NCBI GenBank assembly: GCA_009781445.1
Contig: WQYD01000013.1
Location: 1-34,713, forward strand
Source: Bacillota bacterium
GTDB lineage: Bacteria; Bacillota; Clostridia; Christensenellales; DTU072
Length of the DNA: 34,713 nucleotides
Direction of reading: 5' to 3'
Part shown: piece after piece, positions 135 to 28,834 of the stretch
Layout of the letters: each line of letters opens with the position of its first letter
Numbering within the stretch: position 1 is the stretch's first letter
Program-made: the position numbers and the translations under genes
The notes under the pieces: generated by a model
Databases searched by the model: none
Told to the model about the DNA's origin: nothing
The model's input: the letters and a program-made list of their open reading frames with translations, nothing else

Positions 135-1877
135 TTAGTATTTTGGGCGTTGTTGATATTTTGTGTGAAGGATTTTGTGTGCCTTGTTTCCGCCGATTTC
201 GCCAAGGTAATCCTTATAAAGTTCTTTAACCGCAGGATTCTCGTGAGATTTCCTTAATTTCATTGCCTTATCGGATTTATAAATTGCCTGTGCGCGCTTG
301 GTGCGGATATCAACCGTGTTTCTTTCGTGCGCCGTTTTAATGGGCTGTCCGCCACCGTTTACGCAACCGCCGGGGCAACTCATAATTTCAATAAAGTGGT
401 AATTTGCTTTGCCACTCTTAATCTTGTTAAGAAGTGCGCCTGCGTTTGCAAGCCCCGAAGCCACTGCCACTTTCACAGCTATACCGCCGATTGTGAGGGA
501 AGCCTCTTTAATTCCTTTCGTTCCGCGAACAGCGGTGAAATCAAGTTTATCAAGTTCTTTCTTTTCAAGAATCTCATAAAGCGTCCTTAATGCGGCTTCC
601 ATAACACCGCCTGTTGCGCCGAATATAAGCCCTGCGCCTGAGAAGATACCCATGGGTGCATCAAAGGCTTCGTCCTTTAAAAGGTTGAACTCAATGCCTT
701 GCAAGCGGATTAAGCGCGCAAGTTCTCTTGTGGTTAGCACTGCATCTACATCGGGTACACCGCCTGCATTTTGGTTATCACGCGTTTTTTCAAATTTCTT
801 TGCGGTGCAAGGCATGATAGACACGAAGTAAATATTTTCAGGCTTAACTTTTAGCTTTTCAGCATAATAGGTTTTGCAAAGCGCACCAAGCATTTGTTGG
901 GGTGATTTACAGCTTGAAAGGTTAGGGATAAATTCAGGATAATAGTGTTCCACAAATTTAATCCAAGCAGGGGAACAGCTTGTTAGCATTGGTAGCGTTC
1001 CGCCTTTCTTTACGCGGTTAATGAATTCCGTGCCTTCTTCCATAATGGTAAGATCTGCCGTGAAGTTCACATCAAAAACATCGTTGAAGCCGATTTTTCT
1101 AAGGGCAGAAACCATTTTGCCCTCTACATTCGTGCCCATTGGGATTCCGAACTCTTCGCCAAGCCCCACCCTAACAGCAGGGGCAGTACCGCAGATAACG
1201 CGCTTATTAGGATCTGCAAGTGCGGAAAGAACTTCGTTAATTTCGTCCTTTTCTCTCAAAGCGGCGGTGGGGCAAACATTTATGCACTGCCCGCAACCCA
1301 CGCAAGGGGTATCCTTTAAATTCTTTTCAAAGGCTGTGCCTACATGAGTGTCAAAACCTCTTGCATTGCAACCGATAACGGAAATTCCCTGATAGTTCTT
1401 GCAAGCGGCGACACAACGGCGACAAAGGATACATTTGTTGTTATCTCTCACAAGATAGGGGGTAGTTTCGTCTACTTCGCTTTCACTCATTTCACCGCTG
1501 AATTTACCTGCGTTGCACATCAATTCCTCGGATAGCGTTTGCAATTCACAATTTTTTGAACGAACGCAAGATAAGCATTTCTTTTCATGGTTTGATAGCA
1601 AGAGTTCCACTGTGGTTTTTCTGCTTTCAAGAACCTTTTTGCTGTTTGTGATAATTTCCATGCCTTCATTGGCAGGATAAACGCAGGACGCCACAAGGCT
1701 TCTTGCGCCTTTCACTTCAACCACGCACACGCGACACGCGCCGATTGGATTTATATCCTTTAAATAGCAAAGCGTGGGGATTTTTATACCAGCAACCGCG
1801 CAAGCCTCTAAAACCGTGCTACCGGCGGGTACTTGATAAGCCACGCCGTTTATTTTAACATTAAGCATTTTTTCCAT
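135..1877 (-). CDS. hydA: [FeFe] hydrogenase catalytic subunit (HydA/HndD type)
   Basis: Iron-only hydrogenase subunit of 580 residues that interconverts protons and H2 at an H-cluster in the cytoplasm. An N-terminal plant-type [2Fe-2S] domain (residues about 1-80) is followed by a His/Cys cluster region and two [4Fe-4S] motifs (CILCRRCVAAC and CVGCGQCINVCP, residues about 150-210). The H-cluster motifs are TSCSPAW, MPCTAKKFE and the C-terminal EIMSCPGGCVNGGGQP. The Ser in TSCSPAW is an accepted variant of the first motif. The gene is last in an operon with NuoF- and NuoE-like genes, which points to an electron-bifurcating enzyme coupling H2 to NAD(H) and ferredoxin; that is inferred from subunit make-up. 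The start is supported by GGAGGAAACAGGA before ATG. No hydEFG maturases are in the window. Confidence 0.95.
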   Translation of the reverse strand: MEKMLNVKINGVAYQVPAGSTVLEACAVAGIKIPTLCYLKDINPIGACRVCVVEVKGARSLVASCVYPANEGMEIITNSKKVLESRKTTVELLLSNHEKKCLSCVRSKNCELQTLSEELMCNAGKFSGEMSESEVDETTPYLVRDNNKCILCRRCVAACKNYQGISVIGCNARGFDTHVGTAFEKNLKDTPCVGCGQCINVCPTAALREKDEINEVLSALADPNKRVICGTAPAVRVGLGEEFGIPMGTNVEGKMVSALRKIGFNDVFDVNFTADLTIMEEGTEFINRVKKGGTLPMLTSCSPAWIKFVEHYYPEFIPNLSSCKSPQQMLGALCKTYYAEKLKVKPENIYFVSIMPCTAKKFEKTRDNQNAGGVPDVDAVLTTRELARLIRLQGIEFNLLKDEAFDAPMGIFSGAGLIFGATGGVMEAALRTLYEILEKKELDKLDFTAVRGTKGIKEASLTIGGIAVKVAVASGLANAGALLNKIKSGKANYHFIEIMSCPGGCVNGGGQPIKTAHERNTVDIRTKRAQAIYKSDKAMKLRKSHENPAVKELYKDYLGEIGGNKAHKILHTKYQQRPKY

Positions 1878-1892
1878 TCCTGTTTCCTCCGA

Positions 1893-3389
1893 TTACTTTT
1901 TGTCTATAGCTTTGAATTTGCATATATCCATGCAAACCCCGCATTTGATACATTTTTGCATATCAATGAAGTGCTTTTCCTTAACTGCGCCCGTAATTGC
2001 ATCCACAGGGCATTTCCTCTTGCAAAGCGTACAGCCTATGCACTTATCGTTAACCACATAGGAAAGCAAACTTTTGCAGATACCTGCGGGGCAAGTGTTA
2101 TCCTTAACATGGGCTTCGTATTCCTCACGGAAATATTTAAGCGTGGAAAGCACGGGGTTTGGTGCGGTTTGCCCCAAGCCACAAAGAGAGGCGTCCTTTA
2201 TGTATTCGCATAACGCTTCCATATCGTCAAGATCCTTCATTGTAGCTTTGCCTTCGGTAATCTTTTCAAGATATTCCAAAAGCCTTGTAGTACCCACACG
2301 GCAGGGGGTGCATTTTCCGCAAGATTCTTCTTTTGTGAAATCAAGGAAGAATTTTGCAATGTCTACCATGCAGTTATCTTCGTCCATAACGATTAGTCCG
2401 CCACTGCCCATCATTGAACCAAGGGCGATAAGGTTATCGTAATCAATCGGCACATCAAGGTGCTGTGCAGGTATGCAACCGCCTGAAGGCCCGCCTGTTT
2501 GCGCTGCTTTAAATTTCTTGCCGTCTGGTATTCCGCCACCGATTTCATCTATAACCGTCCTGAGTGTTGTACCCATTGCAATTTCCACAAGCCCTGTGTT
2601 ATTGATTTTTCCGCCAAGCGCGAAAACTTTAGTGCCTTTGGATTTTTCCGTTCCCATTCCTTGAAGCCACTTTGCGCCTTTCAAGAGGATAGGGGGGATA
2701 TTCGCAAATGTTTCCACATTGTTTAAAACTGTGGGTTTTCCGAACAAGCCTTTCACAGCAGGGAAGGGGGGACGCACACGGGGTTCACCGCGGTTACCTT
2801 CAATAGAAGTCATAAGTGCGGTTTCCTCACCGCAAACGAACGCACCGCTTCCAAGGCGGATTTCAAGGTCAAAGCAGTGCTTACTGCCAAAGATATTTTT
2901 GCCAAGGAATCCGTACTTCTTAGCTTGCGTAATCGCAATTTGCAACCGTTTAACCGCCACGGGATATTCCGCACGGATATAAACATAGCCTTGCTTTGCG
3001 CCGATAGCATAGCCTGCAATCGTCATAGCTTCAATGAGGCAATGGGGATCGCCCTCTAAGATTGATCTATCCATGAATGCCCCCGGATCGCCTTCGTCTG
3101 CATTGCAACAAACGAACTTTGTATCGTTCTTTTGGTTTAAAGCAAATTGCCACTTAGTACCTGTGGGGAATCCGCCACCACCGCGCCCTCTAAGCCCTGA
3201 ATCTTTAATAGTATCCACAACCTGCTGAGGCGTGAGTTCCGTTAAAGCCTTTGCAAGGGCTTGATATCCGTCATAAGCTATGTATTCGTCAATATTCTCA
3301 GGGTTAATAACACCGCTGTTTTGCAAAGCCACCCTGTACTGCTTTTTCATGAAATCGGTTTTATCTAAACATTTATTTATTTCTGCCAT
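1893..3389 (-). CDS. hydB: NADH-binding flavoprotein subunit of hydrogenase (NuoF/HydB-like)
   Basis: A 498-residue NuoF-like subunit that binds FMN and NAD(H) and passes electrons to HydA. Visible signatures are [13 protein letters not shown] (nucleotide site), [14 protein letters not shown] (FMN), a glycine-rich VCGEETALM segment, the [12 protein letters not shown] [4Fe-4S] site, and two C-terminal ferredoxin motifs ([12 protein letters not shown] and [12 protein letters not shown]). It lacks the N-terminal thioredoxin-like extension found in longer HydB proteins; the separate 121-residue gene just upstream supplies that fold. AGGAG sits ten bases before the ATG. It is 15 bases upstream of hydA and clearly co-transcribed with it. 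Confidence 0.94.
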
Positions 3390-3415
3390 TTTAATTTTCT
3401 CCTTTTGTTGCCCGA

Positions 3416-3781
3416 TTATTCGTTTCCGATAACAAAATCCATTACAGGTTTTCCGCCTGCAAGGTGCTCTTCGGCTATGCGCTTAGCAGAATCTGCCGCA
3501 AGCGCGATATATGTTACCTTTTCTTTGCCCGCTTCCGTTACCTCAACCATGGGTTCATGCTTGCACATTCCAAGGCAACCTGATTGGATAATTTTCACAT
3601 TTGTAAGCCCAAGCCTCTTAACTTCTTTTTGGAAAGCCTTGAACACAGGTTCTGCGCCCGCGGCAATTCCGCAAGTGGCAAGCCCCACAGTTACGCGGAT
3701 ATTGGAATTAGTTTTGCCGTCTAAATTTAATTCGGCACGCATTTGTTTTCTAATGTCGTTTAATTCTTGAATTGTTTTCAT
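3416..3781 (-). CDS. (2Fe-2S) ferredoxin-domain thioredoxin-like protein of the hydrogenase operon
   Basis: A 121-residue protein of the thioredoxin-like [2Fe-2S] type that accompanies NuoF-like hydrogenase subunits. Candidate ligands are Cys37 (in ATCGIAAGA), Cys69 and Cys73 (in [11 protein letters not shown]), the usual Cys pattern of this short family. It lies between the NuoE-like and NuoF-like genes with short gaps, and GGAGG precedes its ATG. It probably serves as an extra electron-transfer or assembly module for the NuoF-like subunit, matching the N-terminal domain that is fused in longer HydB proteins. The role is inferred from domain make-up and position. Confidence 0.9.
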
Positions 3782-3792
3782 GTTCTCCTCCG

Positions 3793-4296
3793 TTAATCCT
3801 TTTTATAGTTAGAAAGAACTCTTTCCATGTCTGCCTTGCCAACCTTGCCGTAAACATCGGCGTTAACAGTTAGCACAGGCGCCAAACCGCAACAGCCTAT
3901 GCAACGCGTGCCAAGCAATGAAAATTTGCCGTCCTCAGTGCAATCGCCTGATTTGATTTTTAAAAGCTCGGCAAGCCTGTCAAGAATGTCCCCCGCGCCT
4001 TTAACATAGCAAGCAGTTCCTATGCACACTGCAATTTGATATTTGCCTTGCGGATTGAGTGTAAACTGAGAGTAGAATGTGGCAATCCCAAAAACTTCTT
4101 CAAGAGAAACATTCAATTCGTCTGCAATAATAGTTTGCACTTCAATGGGCAGATATCCGTAAATTTCCTGCGCCTGCTGTAAAGACGGCATTAAACCGCC
4201 ACTCATGTTCTTTGTAACGGCAAGTTTTTTCCTTAGTTCAGCCTCTTGCGATGCCGTGCCGTTAAATGGTACTTTGGTTAGCTTTATTTTAGCCAT
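3793..4296 (-). CDS. hydC: NuoE/HydC-like [2Fe-2S] subunit of hydrogenase
   Basis: NuoE-like thioredoxin-fold subunit of 167 residues. It carries a [2Fe-2S] cluster with likely ligands in CIGTACYVKG and GTRCIGCCGLAP and transfers electrons between the flavin subunit and HydA. An upstream in-frame ATG would add 21 residues, but the chosen ATG at 4296 has GGAGG seven bases before it and gives the usual family start (MAKIKL...), so the longer form is unlikely. It is the first gene of the hydrogenase operon, 11 bases before the next gene, and is transcribed away from argC. Confidence 0.93.
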   Translation of the reverse strand: MAKIKLTKVPFNGTASQEAELRKKLAVTKNMSGGLMPSLQQAQEIYGYLPIEVQTIIADELNVSLEEVFGIATFYSQFTLNPQGKYQIAVCIGTACYVKGAGDILDRLAELLKIKSGDCTEDGKFSLLGTRCIGCCGLAPVLTVNADVYGKVGKADMERVLSNYKKD

Positions 4297-4330
4297 TTTG
4301 TATCCTCCGTTGTTTTTTATACCAAGAATA

Positions 4331-4359
4331 ATTTTACTATATATATTTAAATAAAGCAA
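4331..4359 (-). promoter_or_regulatory. Candidate promoter of the hydrogenase operon
   Basis: Read on the minus strand, TTGCTT (4354-4359) and TAAAAT (4331-4336) are separated by exactly 17 bases, upstream of the NuoE-like start. A second register (TTGCCT with TATATA, also 17 apart) overlaps it. Assignment is by consensus only. Confidence 0.5.
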
Positions 4360-5462: not shown

Positions 5463-5467
5463 ATCAA
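5440..5467. repeat. Inverted repeat straddling the argC stop codon
   Basis: TTGATTTAATGTT (5440-5452) is mirrored perfectly by AACATTAAATCAA (5455-5467) across two bases. The stop TAA (5460-5462) is inside the 3' arm. No T-tract follows, so it is not an ordinary intrinsic terminator and argJ lies downstream in the same direction. Confidence 0.7.
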
Positions 5468-5470
5468 TGC

Positions 5471-5623
5471 AGAATTCAGAATTCAGAATGCAGAATTATG
5501 GAATCTAAATATCATTATTGATTAGGCAATAGGCATGGAAGTTAAAACTAAAAACTAAAAAGTAAAAACGGTGGAATCTAAATATCATTATCAATAAATC
5601 CACAATTCTGAATTCTGAATTCT
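5471..5623. repeat. MITE-like nested repeats in the argC-argJ gap
   Basis: A 19-base perfect inverted repeat (5471-5489 and 5605-5623, made of AGAATTC steps) encloses two 20-base direct repeats beginning TGGAATCTAAAT (5499 and 5572). The centre has AAAACT/AAAAGT runs and an AGGCAATAGGCA motif. Related pieces recur at 7886-8012, including inverted copies of GGAATCTAAAT. No coding potential; it may be a small non-autonomous element or a slippage-prone filler. Confidence 0.6.
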
Positions 5624-5651
5624 TAATTCTGAATTAAAAAAGAGGTAAACA

Positions 5652-7883: not shown

Positions 7884-7885
7884 AA

Positions 7886-8012
7886 TTAAGAATTAAGAAT
7901 TCAGAATGCAGAATTAAGGATTATTTAACTAATAATGAGATTTAGAATCCACCATTTATCATTTATCATTCTTCATTTTTCATTTTCTTGCCTATTGCCT
8001 CAAAGATTTAGA
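7886..8012. repeat. Dispersed short repeats (AGAATTC, TTTATCATT and AGAATCC motifs)
   Basis: This noncoding stretch has AGAATTCAGAATGCAGAATT, which matches the argC-argJ gap, a run of ATCATT/TTCATT steps (7943-7978), CCTATTGCCT, and two GATTTAGAATCC copies that are inverted relative to those at 5499 and 5572. No gene is supported. Confidence 0.5.
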
Positions 8013-8019
8013 ATCCGAA

Positions 8020-8168
8020 AGAACCCCAAAGGGGTGAAATGTGCATAACCCCGCGCTACGCTTACGCTTGCACGGGGTGCATAGAGTGTGCGTATATAAA
8101 TATATCCGTGGAAGCCCCAAAGGGGCTTTATGTGCATAACCCCGTGCAAGCGTAAGCGTAGCGCGGGG
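8020..8168. repeat. Two direct units whose GC-rich 29-bp cores are in opposite orientation
   Basis: Each unit reads CCCCAAAGGGG, a short spacer, ATGTGCATAA, then a 29-bp core. The cores (8049-8077 and 8140-8168) are exact reverse complements, while the flanks are direct. Each core begins CCCCG and ends CGGGG and contains GCTACGCTTACGCTTGC or its complement. Overlapping open frames here are low-complexity and were not called as genes. Confidence 0.7.
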
Positions 8169-8355: not shown

Positions 8356-9432
8356 CTATCTATAAAAAATTTTAGCCTTGCAGTTCTTATCCCAGTTCTT
8401 GTCCCATTTTTTAGAGTTTGCTTTATTTACATAAATTTTTTGATGTTTGCCCCAATTCAAAAAAGCACCTGCCCCTACGGCTGAGATGCTATCGAGAAGT
8501 AAAATGCTTGTAATTTTGACACAATCTTGAAAAGCAAAATCGCCGACATATCTTATATTTTCAGGTATAAAAACGCTAATAATTGTGTCACGAGAGGATT
8601 CAAAGGCTTTTCTGCCTATTATGGTTACAGTTTTAGTTCCTATTTTTTCAGGAATCGTAACACAACATTCCGTCCCTGTGTATTTTTCAATAGAAAGAAC
8701 AGTAGTACCTATATTTAATTCTTTAAATTCAAAGAGAGTAGCAAATTTCTCTTCGCGTTGCTTTTCTTCGTGCAGTTTTTCTTGTTCCGCTTTCTCTTCG
8801 CGTTGCTTTTCTTCGTGCAGTTTTTCTTGTTCCGCTTTCTCTTCGCGTTGCTTTTCTTCGTGCAGTTTTTCTTGTTCCGCTTTTTTGCGCTTATACCTTG
8901 CTGTTGTGGCAGGTGCTTTTGCGTAAATTTCGGCTTTCTGTTCGTCATTTGCAACGGCTATCGCTTTTTCAAAATAGCTGTCTGCTTTTTTTTCAATACT
9001 CTCTTTGTTTCTGGCGTCCACTTCAGCTTCACTCAAATAGGTATCGGAATGTACAGAGTGAAAATAATCCTGGCAGTACAAACCGAAACCCTTTTCGCGC
9101 ATTAAGCAAAGCCCCAACCAGCCCCTATAATCGGCAGGATTCAATTTAATCGCCTCTTTGAAGGCTTTGTCTGCACTAAAGTCTTCACCCAAACTCAAAA
9201 ACACATTACCGTTTCTTATGTAATCCTCTGCCTCGTTCTGTTCTTTACCTATTATAGTTTTATTAATAACTTGGTTGGTGGTGTGTTGCGTGTTGTAGTT
9301 TGTGGTGTTATGGATAATATCTTGTTTAATTAGAATCTTTGTTCCGCAATGGTTGCAGAAGCCAAATTCCCTCGTGTCGTCCAACCCAACTTGTCCGCCA
9401 CATTGCCCGCAAACTAATGTAATAACTGCCAT
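8356..9432 (-). CDS. Zinc-ribbon, TPR-like, coiled-coil and leucine-rich-repeat protein
   Basis: A 358-residue protein with no signal peptide. Residues 8-29 form a zinc ribbon (C8xxC11, C26xxC29). Residues about 65-180 look TPR-like (NPADYRGWLGLC, with alternating helices). Residues about 184-228 are three exact copies of the 15-residue charged repeat EEKAEQEKLHEEKQR, encoded by perfect 45-bp repeats at 8749-8883. The C-terminus (about 235-340) is a BspA-type leucine-rich-repeat segment (VTIIGRKAFESS, VGDFAFQDC, VGAGAFLNW). AGGAGG precedes the ATG. It is probably a cytoplasmic interaction scaffold; no enzyme motif is seen. The exact DNA repeats imply recent expansion. Confidence 0.85.
   Translation of the reverse strand: MAVITLVCGQCGGQVGLDDTREFGFCNHCGTKILIKQDIIHNTTNYNTQHTTNQVINKTIIGKEQNEAEDYIRNGNVFLSLGEDFSADKAFKEAIKLNPADYRGWLGLCLMREKGFGLYCQDYFHSVHSDTYLSEAEVDARNKESIEKKADSYFEKAIAVANDEQKAEIYAKAPATTARYKRKKAEQEKLHEEKQREEKAEQEKLHEEKQREEKAEQEKLHEEKQREEKFATLFEFKELNIGTTVLSIEKYTGTECCVTIPEKIGTKTVTIIGRKAFESSRDTIISVFIPENIRYVGDFAFQDCVKITSILLLDSISAVGAGAFLNWGKHQKIYVNKANSKKWDKNWDKNCKAKIFYR
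8749..8883 (-). repeat. Three perfect 45-bp tandem repeats within a coding region
   Basis: Units start at 8749, 8794 and 8839 and are identical. Each encodes 15 residues of charged coiled coil in the zinc-ribbon protein. Copy number is likely to vary between strains. Confidence 0.9.
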
Positions 9433-14746: not shown

Positions 14747-17056
14747 GTGAAGCGAAATGTTTTTCTAATTGTCATTATGCTTTTTGCTGTGTCTGCCATT
14801 CTTGCGGGCTGTTTTTTAGGTGGCGGGGAAAGTGAGGAAAAAGAGGGCAAGTACGAAACGCCCACAGAGCTTAGATATGAAAGCGGGCTTTTGCAATGGC
14901 ATAGCACTGCAAATTCATCTTTATTTGATATTGAGTTAAACGGAAATATTGTTACCTCATTTGGTTTTTTATCCTCATATTATATTCAATCGGGGCATTA
15001 CACGGCGAGGGTGAGAGTAGCGGAAACGAAGCAATTTTACGCCTCTGATTGGACGGGCGAAATTTCATTTTCAGTGGTTCAGCCTTTCACCTTGCATTAT
15101 CAGGACGGAAGTTATTTCTCAGAATCTTTTGAAACCGTGGCAGGCGATCCTTATGAAAATCTTCCTATAATTCAACGCGAGGGTTATGAGTTTTTGGGTT
15201 GGTTTTCAAGCCAACACGGCGGTGTGGAAATCACTAACGGAATGCCTGCCCTCACTGTGCAGGATTTTTACGCAAGGTGGAAACCGCTTGAATTCACGCT
15301 TTATTTTGATAACAACGGCGGTGAGGGTGAGAGCAGTAAGATAATCATTTTCGGCAGTGTTTTAGGTTCTTTACCCGTCCCCGAAAAGGCAGGATATTTC
15401 TTCGGCGGTTGGTTTTCTGAAGACGGGGCAACAAATATAATCACCTCAACCCCTGTGAACAAAACGGAAGATATAACGGTTTATGCGCGTTGGCTTAAAG
15501 AAATTGAAATCTCGTTTGAAAGCGAAAACGGCAATGATTCTGTGCTTAAAACGGCGATAGTTTCCCACCCTCTGCCACTGCACAATGCGCCTCAAAAAAC
15601 AGGCTATGTGTTCGGCGGATATTTTGCTAAAAAGGGCGGTGAGGGAATGCAAATTTATAGCCTCAATATGTCCCCCTTGTTTGGTTTTTGGGGGGAAGAT
15701 TTCCCCACAGTTTTGTACGCAAAATGGACGCCCGTTACAAGGCAAATTTCCTTTAACCGAAACGGCGGAACAGGTGGCACAGCGCAAGCGGTAGCAGAGT
15801 TTGATAGCCCCATGCCAAGCGCGGAAGCCCCCTCAAGAATCGGTTACACTTTTATGGGATACTTCGTTCTTGGCAGTAACCCACAGCTTTTTTATTATGA
15901 TAAAGATATGGTTAGCCTAAGGGATTGGGATCGCCCTGAGATTAGCGCATTTTCATATGTTTTGCACGCGCATTGGCAGGTGAATACATATGGAATCAGC
16001 CTTGTTGTGGGCGAAGGCGCGCCACTTTTAAACAATGAACACACGGTAGAATTTAACCAACATTACACTCTTGAAGTTCCTCAAGAAAGATATGGCTATA
16101 TCTTCGGCGGTTGGTGGACTTCGGCGGGCGGTGGAACGCAATTTACTAATGAAAACGGCGTTAGTTTGTCCGCTTGGAATCGCACAAGCGGAATAACCCT
16201 TTACGCAATATGGATGGCGCAAAGGTACACACTTCTATATGTGGATAGCGGAATTGAGTTAAGCCACACAGTTACATTTAACCCAAATTATGAAGGCGCG
16301 CTGTTGCCTTATTTTACCCAAACGGTAACGCTTTTTGAGGGGCTAAAATATCACGAACCAAGGGGGCGCACAGGGTACATATTTGCAGGCTGGTACACCA
16401 CCGAACTTTTGAATATTCCCTTTAATTTTAACGCCACCGTAAGCGGGGATATAACGGTGTATGCAAAGTGGATTTCATATGATTCAAGCCACCGTGTGCT
16501 TGATATAGGGCGTGGTTCAGGGGGCTTTAGTTTTTTCCCCTCAAGTTCTACCTCTCAGTGGTTCGTTTTCGTTCCGCTTGTTACGCAATACATAAGAATA
16601 GTTGTAGCGGTAACAACGGGCGTTTCTGTGTCTGCGTTTATTCATGACGCCGAGGGCTTTGCGAGTAGACCGCCCAAACCCTTTGCAACTTACTATTCAT
16701 ATACGCAACAAGAATCTATAAATTTCCTTGCGGTAGCAGGTAGCCCTTACTATCTTCTTGTGTCGTCTGGTGGCGGTGTTACGCAGGGCAGTGTAAGCAT
16801 ATCCGCAGAGGGAAACAGGTTGCCTAATGACGGCGGAAAGGCGCAACCCACCACTTCGCGCACAGCCACATTCGGTTGGGAAACCCCCCTCATTTCTTGG
16901 ACGCCTGTGCGCGCAGGTTTTTCATTTGGCGGATACTTCACAGAGCCGAACGGTGAGGGTGAAATGTTTTATGATTCACAAAGAAATCCCGTTAAAAACA
17001 TTTGGGATTTTGAATATCATGATATAATTATACCGTTGTACGCAAAATGGACTTAA
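14747..17056 (+). CDS. Surface lipoprotein with InlB-type (Listeria-Bacteroides) repeats
   Basis: A 769-residue exported lipoprotein. The signal peptide ends in ILAGC with Cys22 as lipidation site, followed by a G/E-rich linker. Residues about 110-560 hold six beta repeats of the InlB B-repeat kind, each ending in GYxFxGWF ... YAxW (e.g. GYFFGGWFSEDG, GYIFGGWWTSAGG). A different beta domain (about 565-690) comes next, then a seventh repeat at the end (GFSFGGYFTEPNGEGE ... LYAKW). The GTG start is chosen because it yields a complete signal peptide and matches the promoter. The repeats suggest cell-surface binding or stalk formation; the ligand is unknown. It lies 56 bases before the ABC transporter gene, probably in one transcript. 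Confidence 0.88.
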   Translation: MKRNVFLIVIMLFAVSAILAGCFLGGGESEEKEGKYETPTELRYESGLLQWHSTANSSLFDIELNGNIVTSFGFLSSYYIQSGHYTARVRVAETKQFYASDWTGEISFSVVQPFTLHYQDGSYFSESFETVAGDPYENLPIIQREGYEFLGWFSSQHGGVEITNGMPALTVQDFYARWKPLEFTLYFDNNGGEGESSKIIIFGSVLGSLPVPEKAGYFFGGWFSEDGATNIITSTPVNKTEDITVYARWLKEIEISFESENGNDSVLKTAIVSHPLPLHNAPQKTGYVFGGYFAKKGGEGMQIYSLNMSPLFGFWGEDFPTVLYAKWTPVTRQISFNRNGGTGGTAQAVAEFDSPMPSAEAPSRIGYTFMGYFVLGSNPQLFYYDKDMVSLRDWDRPEISAFSYVLHAHWQVNTYGISLVVGEGAPLLNNEHTVEFNQHYTLEVPQERYGYIFGGWWTSAGGGTQFTNENGVSLSAWNRTSGITLYAIWMAQRYTLLYVDSGIELSHTVTFNPNYEGALLPYFTQTVTLFEGLKYHEPRGRTGYIFAGWYTTELLNIPFNFNATVSGDITVYAKWISYDSSHRVLDIGRGSGGFSFFPSSSTSQWFVFVPLVTQYIRIVVAVTTGVSVSAFIHDAEGFASRPPKPFATYYSYTQQESINFLAVAGSPYYLLVSSGGGVTQGSVSISAEGNRLPNDGGKAQPTTSRTATFGWETPLISWTPVRAGFSFGGYFTEPNGEGEMFYDSQRNPVKNIWDFEYHDIIIPLYAKWT

Positions 17057-26866: not shown

Positions 26867-26895
26867 TTGACAAAGCAAATGCACGGGTGTATTAT
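26867..26895 (+). promoter_or_regulatory. Strong promoter of the Cys-repeat lipoprotein gene
   Basis: A consensus TTGACA (26867-26872) and TATTAT (26890-26895) with a 17-base spacer. The leader of about 105 bases includes a TGCG/CATGCG-rich, alternating purine-pyrimidine stretch (26920-26962). Confidence 0.75.
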
Positions 26896-26927
26896 TTGGG
26901 TAAGGGGTAACCTAATTAGTCGTGCGT

Positions 26928-26996
26928 ATGCGCCTATATGCGTTCATGCGCGTGAGTGCGTACGGAATTATTTTCGGAAACAAAAGCGCACTTTAA
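26928..26996 (+). CDS. Possible 22-residue leader peptide
   Basis: ATG at 26928 opens a 22-codon frame (MRLYAFMRVSAYGIIFGN, then KSAL) whose stop TAA at 26994-26996 overlaps the AAGGAAGAGGG ribosome binding site of the next gene. Translation of it could gate that site. There is no Shine-Dalgarno sequence before it, so it may be chance. Confidence 0.25.
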   Translation: MRLYAFMRVSAYGIIFGNKSAL

Positions 26997-27009
26997 GGAA
27001 GAGGGAAAA

Positions 27010-28770
27010 ATGAAAAACAAATTTAAAACTTTTATCACAATCATAGCAATTATCTTAATATGTTCGGTGGTGCTTTCTGCTTGCAGTAGCAGAGAAACCG
27101 AGAACAACGGCGCAGGCGAAGGCTGTGGCGAATGCGGATTGCACGCTTGCATAGCTTGCGAACCCTGCACCGCACACACCTGCACCCCTTGCGACAAGGC
27201 TTGCCAACTGCACACTTGCAACGGTTGCGAAATAACCTGTGCATTGCACACCTGTGAAATATGCGAAACGATTTGTGAAGAAACAACCTGCGCGATATGT
27301 GACGGTGGCGAGGGCGGATCGTATTATGCTTGCAACGATTGCGGGTTGCACGCTTGCTTAGCTTGCGATCCTTGCACGGCGCATAATTGCACCCCCTGTA
27401 GTAAAGCCTGCGCATTGCATACTTGTGCAATCTGCGAAAAAACTTGTGGCATTCACATTTGCGCCCCTTGCGGAATAACCTGCACATTGCACACTTGTGG
27501 CGAATGTGAAAGAGGTTGCGCCGAACATATCTGCACCACCTGCAACAAAATTTGCAATGAACACACCTGCACAATCTGCAATCTAACCTGCAACGATCAT
27601 GTTTGCACCACCTGCAACAGAACCTGCGGATTGCACATTTGTGGTGAATGCGAAATGGAATGCGATTTGCATGTTTGCGGGATTTGCGGTGAAACTTGCA
27701 CAGCGCATGAATGTGATATTTGCGAAACAACCTGTGACGGACACACCTGTGACGCTTGTGGCACTGAATGCCAAGCCCACGCTTGCGAACGCTGTGGAAT
27801 TATTTGTGGCGAGCATATCTGCGCAACCTGCGAAACAACCTGCACCGAACACACCTGCACACCCTGCAACAAAATCTGCAACTTACACATTTGTGGCGAC
27901 TGTAGCAGAACCTGCACTTTGCACATTTGTGGCGAATGCGAAAGGGAATGCGTTCAACATATCTGCGCAACCTGTAGCAGAACCTGCGAATTGCACACCT
28001 GCACAATCTGTAGCAAAACCTGCAACTTGCACACCTGCACACCCTGCAACCGAACTTGCAACTTGCACATTTGTGCAACCTGTAGCAAAACCTGCAACGA
28101 TCACACTTGCACAACCTGCAAAGGAATCTGCGAAATCAATTGTTGCTTAGAATGTGACGAAGCACATAAATGTTGCGAATGTAGCCCGTGTGACGAACAC
28201 GCTTGCGCTGTGTTCCGCTTGGTAACAAGTAGCACACACGACCTAAGTTCAGAATACTTAGTTTTAGAAGTTTGGATTGATAACACCAGCCCTATAGGTT
28301 TTAACTCTTATCAGCTTTCCTTGAATTTTGACGCTACGATGCTTACCCATGTAAGCACGGTATTAGATAAAACTATCTGCGGGTGTACAAACATGGAGCT
28401 CTGCGACGACCTTGATCATCCCTATTCCTATAGACCTGCTATAGCAGGGGGTTCGCCGGAGGAAGGAAATAACCCCGCAAACGGATATCTCTTGTTCGGC
28501 AAGAGTGGCACAGTCAGTTCCGACAGGATGAATACTCTCGCAGGCGGCGGATCGGTTATGATTGCCACCATAACATTTGCAGTTAATCCAAGCGTAACCC
28601 ATGGTTCGGAAGTTGAAATTTGGACAGGGACAACAGAGCACATACCCGATAATAACTTTATACGACGCGCGCCCACAAGCAGGTATACCCCCAATAGCTA
28701 CACTCACTTTCATAACGCAGAAGGTCATGAAGTCGCCCCAGTTACCATAACCTTCATTTCAGCAGAATAG
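27010..28770 (+). CDS. Lipoprotein with about 27 Cys/His 12-residue repeats and a cohesin-like domain
   Basis: A 586-residue exported protein. The signal peptide (residues 1-24) ends in LSAC, with Cys25 the lipidation site. Residues about 38-400 are tandem 12-residue units H-x-C-x2-C-x3-C-x2 (e.g. HTCTPCNRTCNL), about 27 copies, giving roughly 90 cysteines in all. The block starting CGLHACIACEPCTAH recurs after a GGEGGSYY break near residue 100, so a longer duplication is layered on the repeats. The C-terminus (about 400-586) looks like a cohesin/immunoglobulin-type beta domain (LVLEVWIDNTSPIGFNSYQL). The ATG at 27010 has AAGGAAGAGGG before it. Each unit could hold a metal or iron-sulfur centre, or be disulfide-bonded; function unknown, and I know no named family for it. 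Confidence 0.85.
   Translation: MKNKFKTFITIIAIILICSVVLSACSSRETENNGAGEGCGECGLHACIACEPCTAHTCTPCDKACQLHTCNGCEITCALHTCEICETICEETTCAICDGGEGGSYYACNDCGLHACLACDPCTAHNCTPCSKACALHTCAICEKTCGIHICAPCGITCTLHTCGECERGCAEHICTTCNKICNEHTCTICNLTCNDHVCTTCNRTCGLHICGECEMECDLHVCGICGETCTAHECDICETTCDGHTCDACGTECQAHACERCGIICGEHICATCETTCTEHTCTPCNKICNLHICGDCSRTCTLHICGECERECVQHICATCSRTCELHTCTICSKTCNLHTCTPCNRTCNLHICATCSKTCNDHTCTTCKGICEINCCLECDEAHKCCECSPCDEHACAVFRLVTSSTHDLSSEYLVLEVWIDNTSPIGFNSYQLSLNFDATMLTHVSTVLDKTICGCTNMELCDDLDHPYSYRPAIAGGSPEEGNNPANGYLLFGKSGTVSSDRMNTLAGGGSVMIATITFAVNPSVTHGSEVEIWTGTTEHIPDNNFIRRAPTSRYTPNSYTHFHNAEGHEVAPVTITFISAE
27120..28205 (+). repeat. Array of about 27 imperfect 36-bp coding repeats
   Basis: Units encode HxCxxCxxxCxx and use TGC/TGT and ACC/ATC codons repetitively. 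The array is in frame throughout, has no constant spacer and is not a CRISPR. Confidence 0.85.
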
Positions 28771-28806
28771 TCAAAGCACAAAAGAACAACACATTACCTA
28801 ATTAAG

Positions 28807-28834
28807 CGGTAGCAAATGCTACCGTTTTCTTCTT
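28807..28834 (+). terminator. Intrinsic terminator after the Cys-repeat lipoprotein gene
   Basis: CGGTAGCA (28807-28814) pairs with TGCTACCG (28817-28824), followed by TTTTCTTCTT. Confidence 0.8.

Follow-up and report, generated by a model that had tools for sequence, protein, structure and literature searches.

The window analysed here (the whole stretch of DNA, 34,713 nucleotides) comes from an uncultured Clostridia-type bacterium whose draft genome comprises 1.89 Mb in 98 contigs and is 93% complete. One of its open reading frames encodes a 586-residue membrane-anchored surface lipoprotein, which carries a tandem array of Cys/His units between its lipid anchor and a C-terminal beta domain (Table 1). 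The signal sequence MKNKFKTFITIIAIILICSVVLSA followed by Cys fits the bacterial lipobox pattern [LVI][ASTVI][GAS]C near residue 25. Since the gene has its own promoter-like site and a terminator-like hairpin, it is probably transcribed alone, as a single-gene unit. A search of the leader against Rfam returned no riboswitch or other known RNA family, and a DtxR-like half-site (TAACCTAA, 26908-26915) was dropped from consideration because its second half is absent and it does not recur upstream of the paralogs. The gene upstream reads as a HemN-like radical SAM protein and the one downstream as a TPP-dependent enzyme; named in this way from sequence, the neighbours give no functional hint.

Table 1 Features of the lipoprotein gene, with positions in the window
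Feature	Position	Strand	Basis
Promoter-like site, sigma-70 type, TTGACA-N17-TATTAT, 11/12	26867..26895 (26867-26872 + 26890-26895)	+	
Leader of ~100 nt: moderate hairpin (z -1.65, not significant), SD-like AGGAAGAGGG before ATG	26901..27009	+	
Lipoprotein gene, 586 aa	27010..28770	+	ORF/sequence
Signal peptide MKNKFKTFITIIAIILICSVVLSA, lipobox LSA followed by C	27010..27081	+	sequence
Predicted lipidated Cys25	27082..27084	+	sequence
Upstream HxCxxCxxxCxx units, n = 3, aa 56-91	27175..27282	+	pattern count
Cys-rich break separating both arrays, including 11-residue unit HACLACDPCTA	27283..27381	+	sequence
Main array: 21 contiguous 12-residue Cys3His units, aa 125-376	27382..28137	+	pattern count
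Degenerate Cys-rich end, HxCCECxPCxxHxC motif common to termite-gut MAG	28138..28203	+	
Cohesin-like beta domain, aa 399-586	28204..28767	+	profiles, sub-threshold
Intrinsic-terminator-like hairpin with T-rich tail	28804..28827	+	

Other parts of the window contain further features. A gene set on the minus strand (135-4359) reads as an electron-bifurcating [FeFe] hydrogenase, which would fit an obligate anaerobe. Three perfect 45-bp copies (8746-8883) inside the gene at 8356-9432 (-) encode repeats of the KAEQEKLHEEKQREE type; here a coiled coil, placed between the zinc-ribbon/TPR start and the LRR end of the protein, has expanded recently. A second lipoprotein (14747-17056) has six InlB-type (Flg_new) repeats.

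Counting of the strict unit HxCxxCxxxCxx revealed 24 copies in the protein, 21 of them contiguous and three upstream. A preliminary description of this DNA had recognized the lipobox correctly and had put the units at about 27; with the two 11-residue variants at the array flanks (HACIACEPCTA and HACLACDPCTA) the count comes to about 26, and a degenerate HxCCECxPC motif follows. The mature lipoprotein contains 96 Cys, about 95 of them unlipidated. Residue shuffling of aa 25-398 (20,000 trials) gave a mean of 0.4 and a maximum of 4 strict units, and a DNA pattern spanning three units had 20 matches in the window compared with none in 100 dinucleotide shuffles; the regular Cys3His unit proposed from first inspection is thus present far above chance. 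Only Cys and His are invariant across the 21 units of the main array. All of their codons (84/84) are intact and vary at third positions only, where divergence is 0.44 compared with 0.0 at positions 1-2. The remaining eight codons per unit, by contrast, show divergence of 0.49, 0.62 and 0.58 at codon positions 1, 2 and 3, respectively. Because the ligand codons vary synonymously while the others have diverged by roughly 50-60%, the pattern reflects selection at the protein level and not recent amplification of DNA; the repeat is old, and selection retains the four ligands and little else. The same divergence by codon position rules out a frame or low-complexity artefact, and the reversed pattern gave 0 matches against 51 genome-wide.

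The window protein matched no family in Pfam (E up to 1), NCBIfam (E up to 1) or PHROGs (E up to 0.1), and profile matches of the array segments were limited to chance-level zinc fingers (best E 0.09). No PDB entry matched the Cys/His repeat, and a literature search on the spacings HXCXXCXXXC and CXXXCXXHXC found no paper on the motif. The earlier statement that no described family has this unit is therefore borne out in Pfam, NCBIfam, PHROGs and PDB; the repeat is genuine and under selection, and it is both rare and without a description in the libraries searched.

Within its own genome, the unit also occurs in two or three further exported proteins, here named C19, C36 and C37. The C19 protein has a lipobox, six units and then a further domain; the C36 protein has InlB repeats followed by cohesin-like domains alternating with arrays; and the C37 protein consists of an array, a CBM_X2-like domain and a TM segment. 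The contigs carrying C36 (L014:3-4205) and C37 (L013:4916-6250) end inside the array in compatible orientations, and the two may be halves of a single large gene for a surface protein that the assembly divided; an overlap between the contig ends was looked for and none was found. Intergenic regions of this genome share dispersed sequences. Seven-base tandem repeats of AATTCTG, found between genes and directly upstream of two Cys/His-repeat genes, lie at 5466-5498, 5603-5635 and 7884-7916 of the window, at L014:4288-4306 and at L015:5344-5362. An identical 22-base sequence, GGTTATGCACATTTCACCCCTT, is found at 8029-8050 (-) of the window and upstream of the C36 gene, and is perhaps part of a longer dispersed element.

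Outside this genome the repeat is rare. No carrier emerged when 39 other species in the family and several hundred genomes of the order and class (sets partly overlapping) were searched with a profile. A strict-pattern scan of the genomes of 84,980 species, whose records may not include those of the window's own genome, yielded 31 stretches with one credible carrier; a carrier whose units are all degenerate or 14 residues long would escape a pattern this strict. Nearly all other stretches were triplet-repeat artefacts in translated frames (CRHCCRHC and the like), four (L033, L037, L042 and L063) gave no open frame with the full pattern on translation, and matches in viral contigs were unconvincing. 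The pattern had no match in plasmid and phage collections.

The credible carrier is the Oscillospiraceae MAG Nt197P3bin121 from termite gut (WRHO01000033.1 and one further contig), Nt197 being the code for the termite Neocapritermes taracua (PMC7024585). It encodes three repeat proteins, with the architectures GH74-array-LTD, CotH kinase-array-LTD-like and LRR-array-C-terminal domain. The first ~725 residues of the GH74-type protein match solved xyloglucanases (best E 5.6e-114), and lamin-tail matches at the C-termini of two of the three proteins, one of them weak, are just or well below the curated cut-off. In the GH74-type xyloglucanase at L094:1-2865, a linker of the 14-residue variant HNCTISPCNRPCEL is joined to the lamin-tail-like domain. 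The MAG proteins share with the window protein the unit (LHICTTCDRDCT), the C-x4-C variant and the HxCCECxPC motif, but differ from it in their partner domains, which are GH74, CotH, LRR and lamin-tail-like.

Comparison of 84 unit junctions from seven proteins revealed where the repeat tolerates changes in length. The standard spacing was found at 69 junctions, and two extra residues were inserted between Cys3 and Cys6 at 10; among the remainder, the Cys6-Cys10 interval had one extra residue once and was one residue short twice, and two junctions were degenerate. Cys10 and the next His were two residues apart at every junction scored. As nearly all insertions are placed between Cys3 and Cys6, C-x3-C-x2-H-x-C appears to be a rigid core straddling the boundary of the 12-residue unit, and this core, lying across two HxCxxCxxxCxx units, is the likely site. 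The complete ligand set first proposed for each unit is kept strictly at exactly four residues per repeat, which, together with a genome in which neither DsbB nor VKOR was found, makes one metal ion per unit plausible, but the placement of indels moves the boundary of the set, as the core spans two units.

The arrays contain approximately 4 to 24 units, and in every carrier they occupy an interval between anchor and domain or between two domains. Their position between domains together with their variable length suggests a portable spacer; a stalk had been listed only as an alternative in the preliminary description, and this context, common to seven proteins in two lineages, supports it. An AlphaFold2 model of the array from four rows reached a pLDDT of 42 and showed about one short strand in each unit; a single-sequence model of the C-terminal head had a pLDDT of 30, too low for the nine-stranded jelly-roll fold of cohesins to be read; models of this quality lend no structural support to a rod or to site geometry.

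The C-terminal domain is present in six copies in the genome, one in the window protein and five in paralogs. When a profile of the six was compared with PDB, the three best matches were cellulosomal scaffoldin chains (E 0.007-0.044) and the next two were entries titled 'Endoglucanase', identified by title only; the five best spanned E 0.0069-0.095. The Pfam cohesin profile PF00963 matched five of the six domains (best E 1.1e-4), all below the gathering score: the window domain reached 12.5 bits (E 0.17) and the C36 paralog 21.3 bits, against a curated cut-off of 24.1 bits that none of the six attains. The resemblance to cohesin noted initially thus held up in profile comparisons, with scaffoldins best in PDB, though sub-threshold in Pfam, and on these profiles we describe the head as cohesin-like without classing it among the cohesins. 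One paralogous domain, 67% identical to the window head, belongs to a surface protein with a 2147-residue open frame, C1. This protein (L012:6509-12817; C1:118508-124816) combines two cohesin-like domains with Ig-like repeats, a dockerin, a TM segment at its C-terminus and another type of Cys-rich repeat, 54 residues long (CDDCTVCQTHDSCLCVACVCGACATCNDACAHTCKLCADALCCVCDTINCKECV). Its dockerin, carried on a surface protein and not on an enzyme, is the only one in the whole genome, and no set of dockerin-bearing enzymes was found genome-wide, so the system is not a cellulosome. The head therefore resembles the cohesins of scaffoldins in profile and in that one of its paralogs also bears a dockerin, but differs from them in that all matches lie below the Pfam gathering score and the genome has no cellulosome.

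Taken together, these sequence features lead us to propose, with moderate confidence, a lipid-anchored protein in which the Cys/His repeat would form a stalk pinned by zinc or another metal and holding the cohesin-like head away from the membrane; the repeat itself is most likely such a metal-pinned spacer, rather than an enzyme or a wire. Each core, in which the last two Cys of one unit join the His and the first Cys of the following unit, would most likely bind one metal ion, probably Zn(II), and the C-x2-C (or C-x4-C) loop would act as a hinge between successive sites. With about two dozen such beads, very little sequence could yield a stiff and compact rod, and this in an organism seemingly lacking a disulfide-forming system. 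Like a cohesin, the head would presumably have its binding partner among other surface or extracellular proteins. A search for DsbB and VKOR in the 93%-complete genome found neither, with positive controls detected; the odd number of thiols (three) plus a His in each unit, combined with this result, favours metal, most likely zinc, over disulfides. Obligate anaerobes tend toward excluding Cys from exported proteins (PMC12453122), so that about 95 unlipidated Cys call for an explanation. We rank the metal-pinned spacer above metal storage, disulfide lacing and a redox wire.

The array could instead act as an extracellular metallothionein that binds, buffers or scavenges metal (Zn, Cu, Cd, Fe) at the surface, with the number of units setting capacity, and the metal itself possibly being the function would be compatible with the spacer position. 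One Cys3His set per 12 residues and a Cys content of 25% are of metallothionein order, and the copy in the window, with 24 units, is unusually long and is preceded by a strong promoter-like site of its own. Metallothioneins share with the array a very high Cys content, short tandem units and almost no other conserved residues, and long tandem-repeat metallothioneins occur in fungi. However, the array is exported, lipid-anchored and interdomain, has a fixed 12-residue Cys3His spacing, and gave no Pfam, NCBIfam or PHROGs profile match to metallothioneins or to other known families of Cys-rich repeats. The short runs in GH74 xyloglucanase, CotH and LRR proteins are unlikely to serve storage, no metal transporter or metal regulator adjoins the gene, and its leader has no regulatory RNA family, which leaves a metallothionein role unlikely.

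We regard as improbable a disulfide-laced stalk, in which Cys oxidized in the cell envelope would cross-link neighbouring units. The location outside the cell agrees with it, and eukaryotic EGF and granulin repeats, which are extracellular, Cys-rich and disulfide-bonded, provide a precedent. Against it, three Cys cannot pair within a unit, the invariant His is left without a role, and neither an even Cys number per unit nor an envelope disulfide pathway (DsbB and VKOR searched) was found, although chemical or other enzymatic oxidation of Cys may be compatible with the absence of both from a draft genome; the tendency of anaerobes to keep Cys out of exports (PMC12453122) also weighs against lacing.

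A redox wire, with an iron-sulfur centre in each unit carrying electrons from the membrane outward, had been raised by the preliminary description and is unsupported. The core C-x3-C-x2-H-x-C does resemble the radical-SAM spacing C-x3-C-x2-C, and identical sites are closely spaced; yet no electron donor, multihaem cytochrome or maturation partner adjoins the gene, cluster insertion outside the cell would need an unknown system because Sec exports are threaded unfolded, and the module also serves as a short linker in hydrolases, all of which makes this function very improbable. Hardly any credence is due to an unstructured, drifting linker whose Cys and His are kept by repeat homogenization: the low-confidence structure prediction would suit it, but homogenization would keep all positions alike, and the divergence of the other codons beside intact, synonymously varying ligand codons largely refutes it.

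The metal-pinned spacer has a partial parallel in the Aap/SasG B-repeats, zinc-dependent stalks of Gram-positive surface proteins in which Zn is bound between molecules. Both would place an elongated repeat stem, possibly involving metal, on a surface protein; the B-repeats, however, are long beta domains, whereas the unit described here has 12 residues with a full ligand set. More tentatively, the Cys3His unit might represent a new scaffold, a metal-beaded rod used as a portable spacer shared between anaerobic gut Clostridia, which would serve surface proteins and polysaccharide-degrading enzymes alike, with the number of beads setting the length of the stem, and the stem would possibly be switched by metal supply or oxygen. 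Although obligate anaerobes tend to avoid Cys in exported proteins, this genome invests 96 Cys in a single mature surface protein and uses the same device in others. Since the repeat also serves as a linker in a xyloglucanase from the termite gut, a recombinant enzyme would allow it to be tested. Should the units bind metal, they would be an unusually short repeat for a surface stem, might find use in the design of spacers tunable by metal, and would offer a handle on how anaerobes stabilize extracellular proteins without disulfides.
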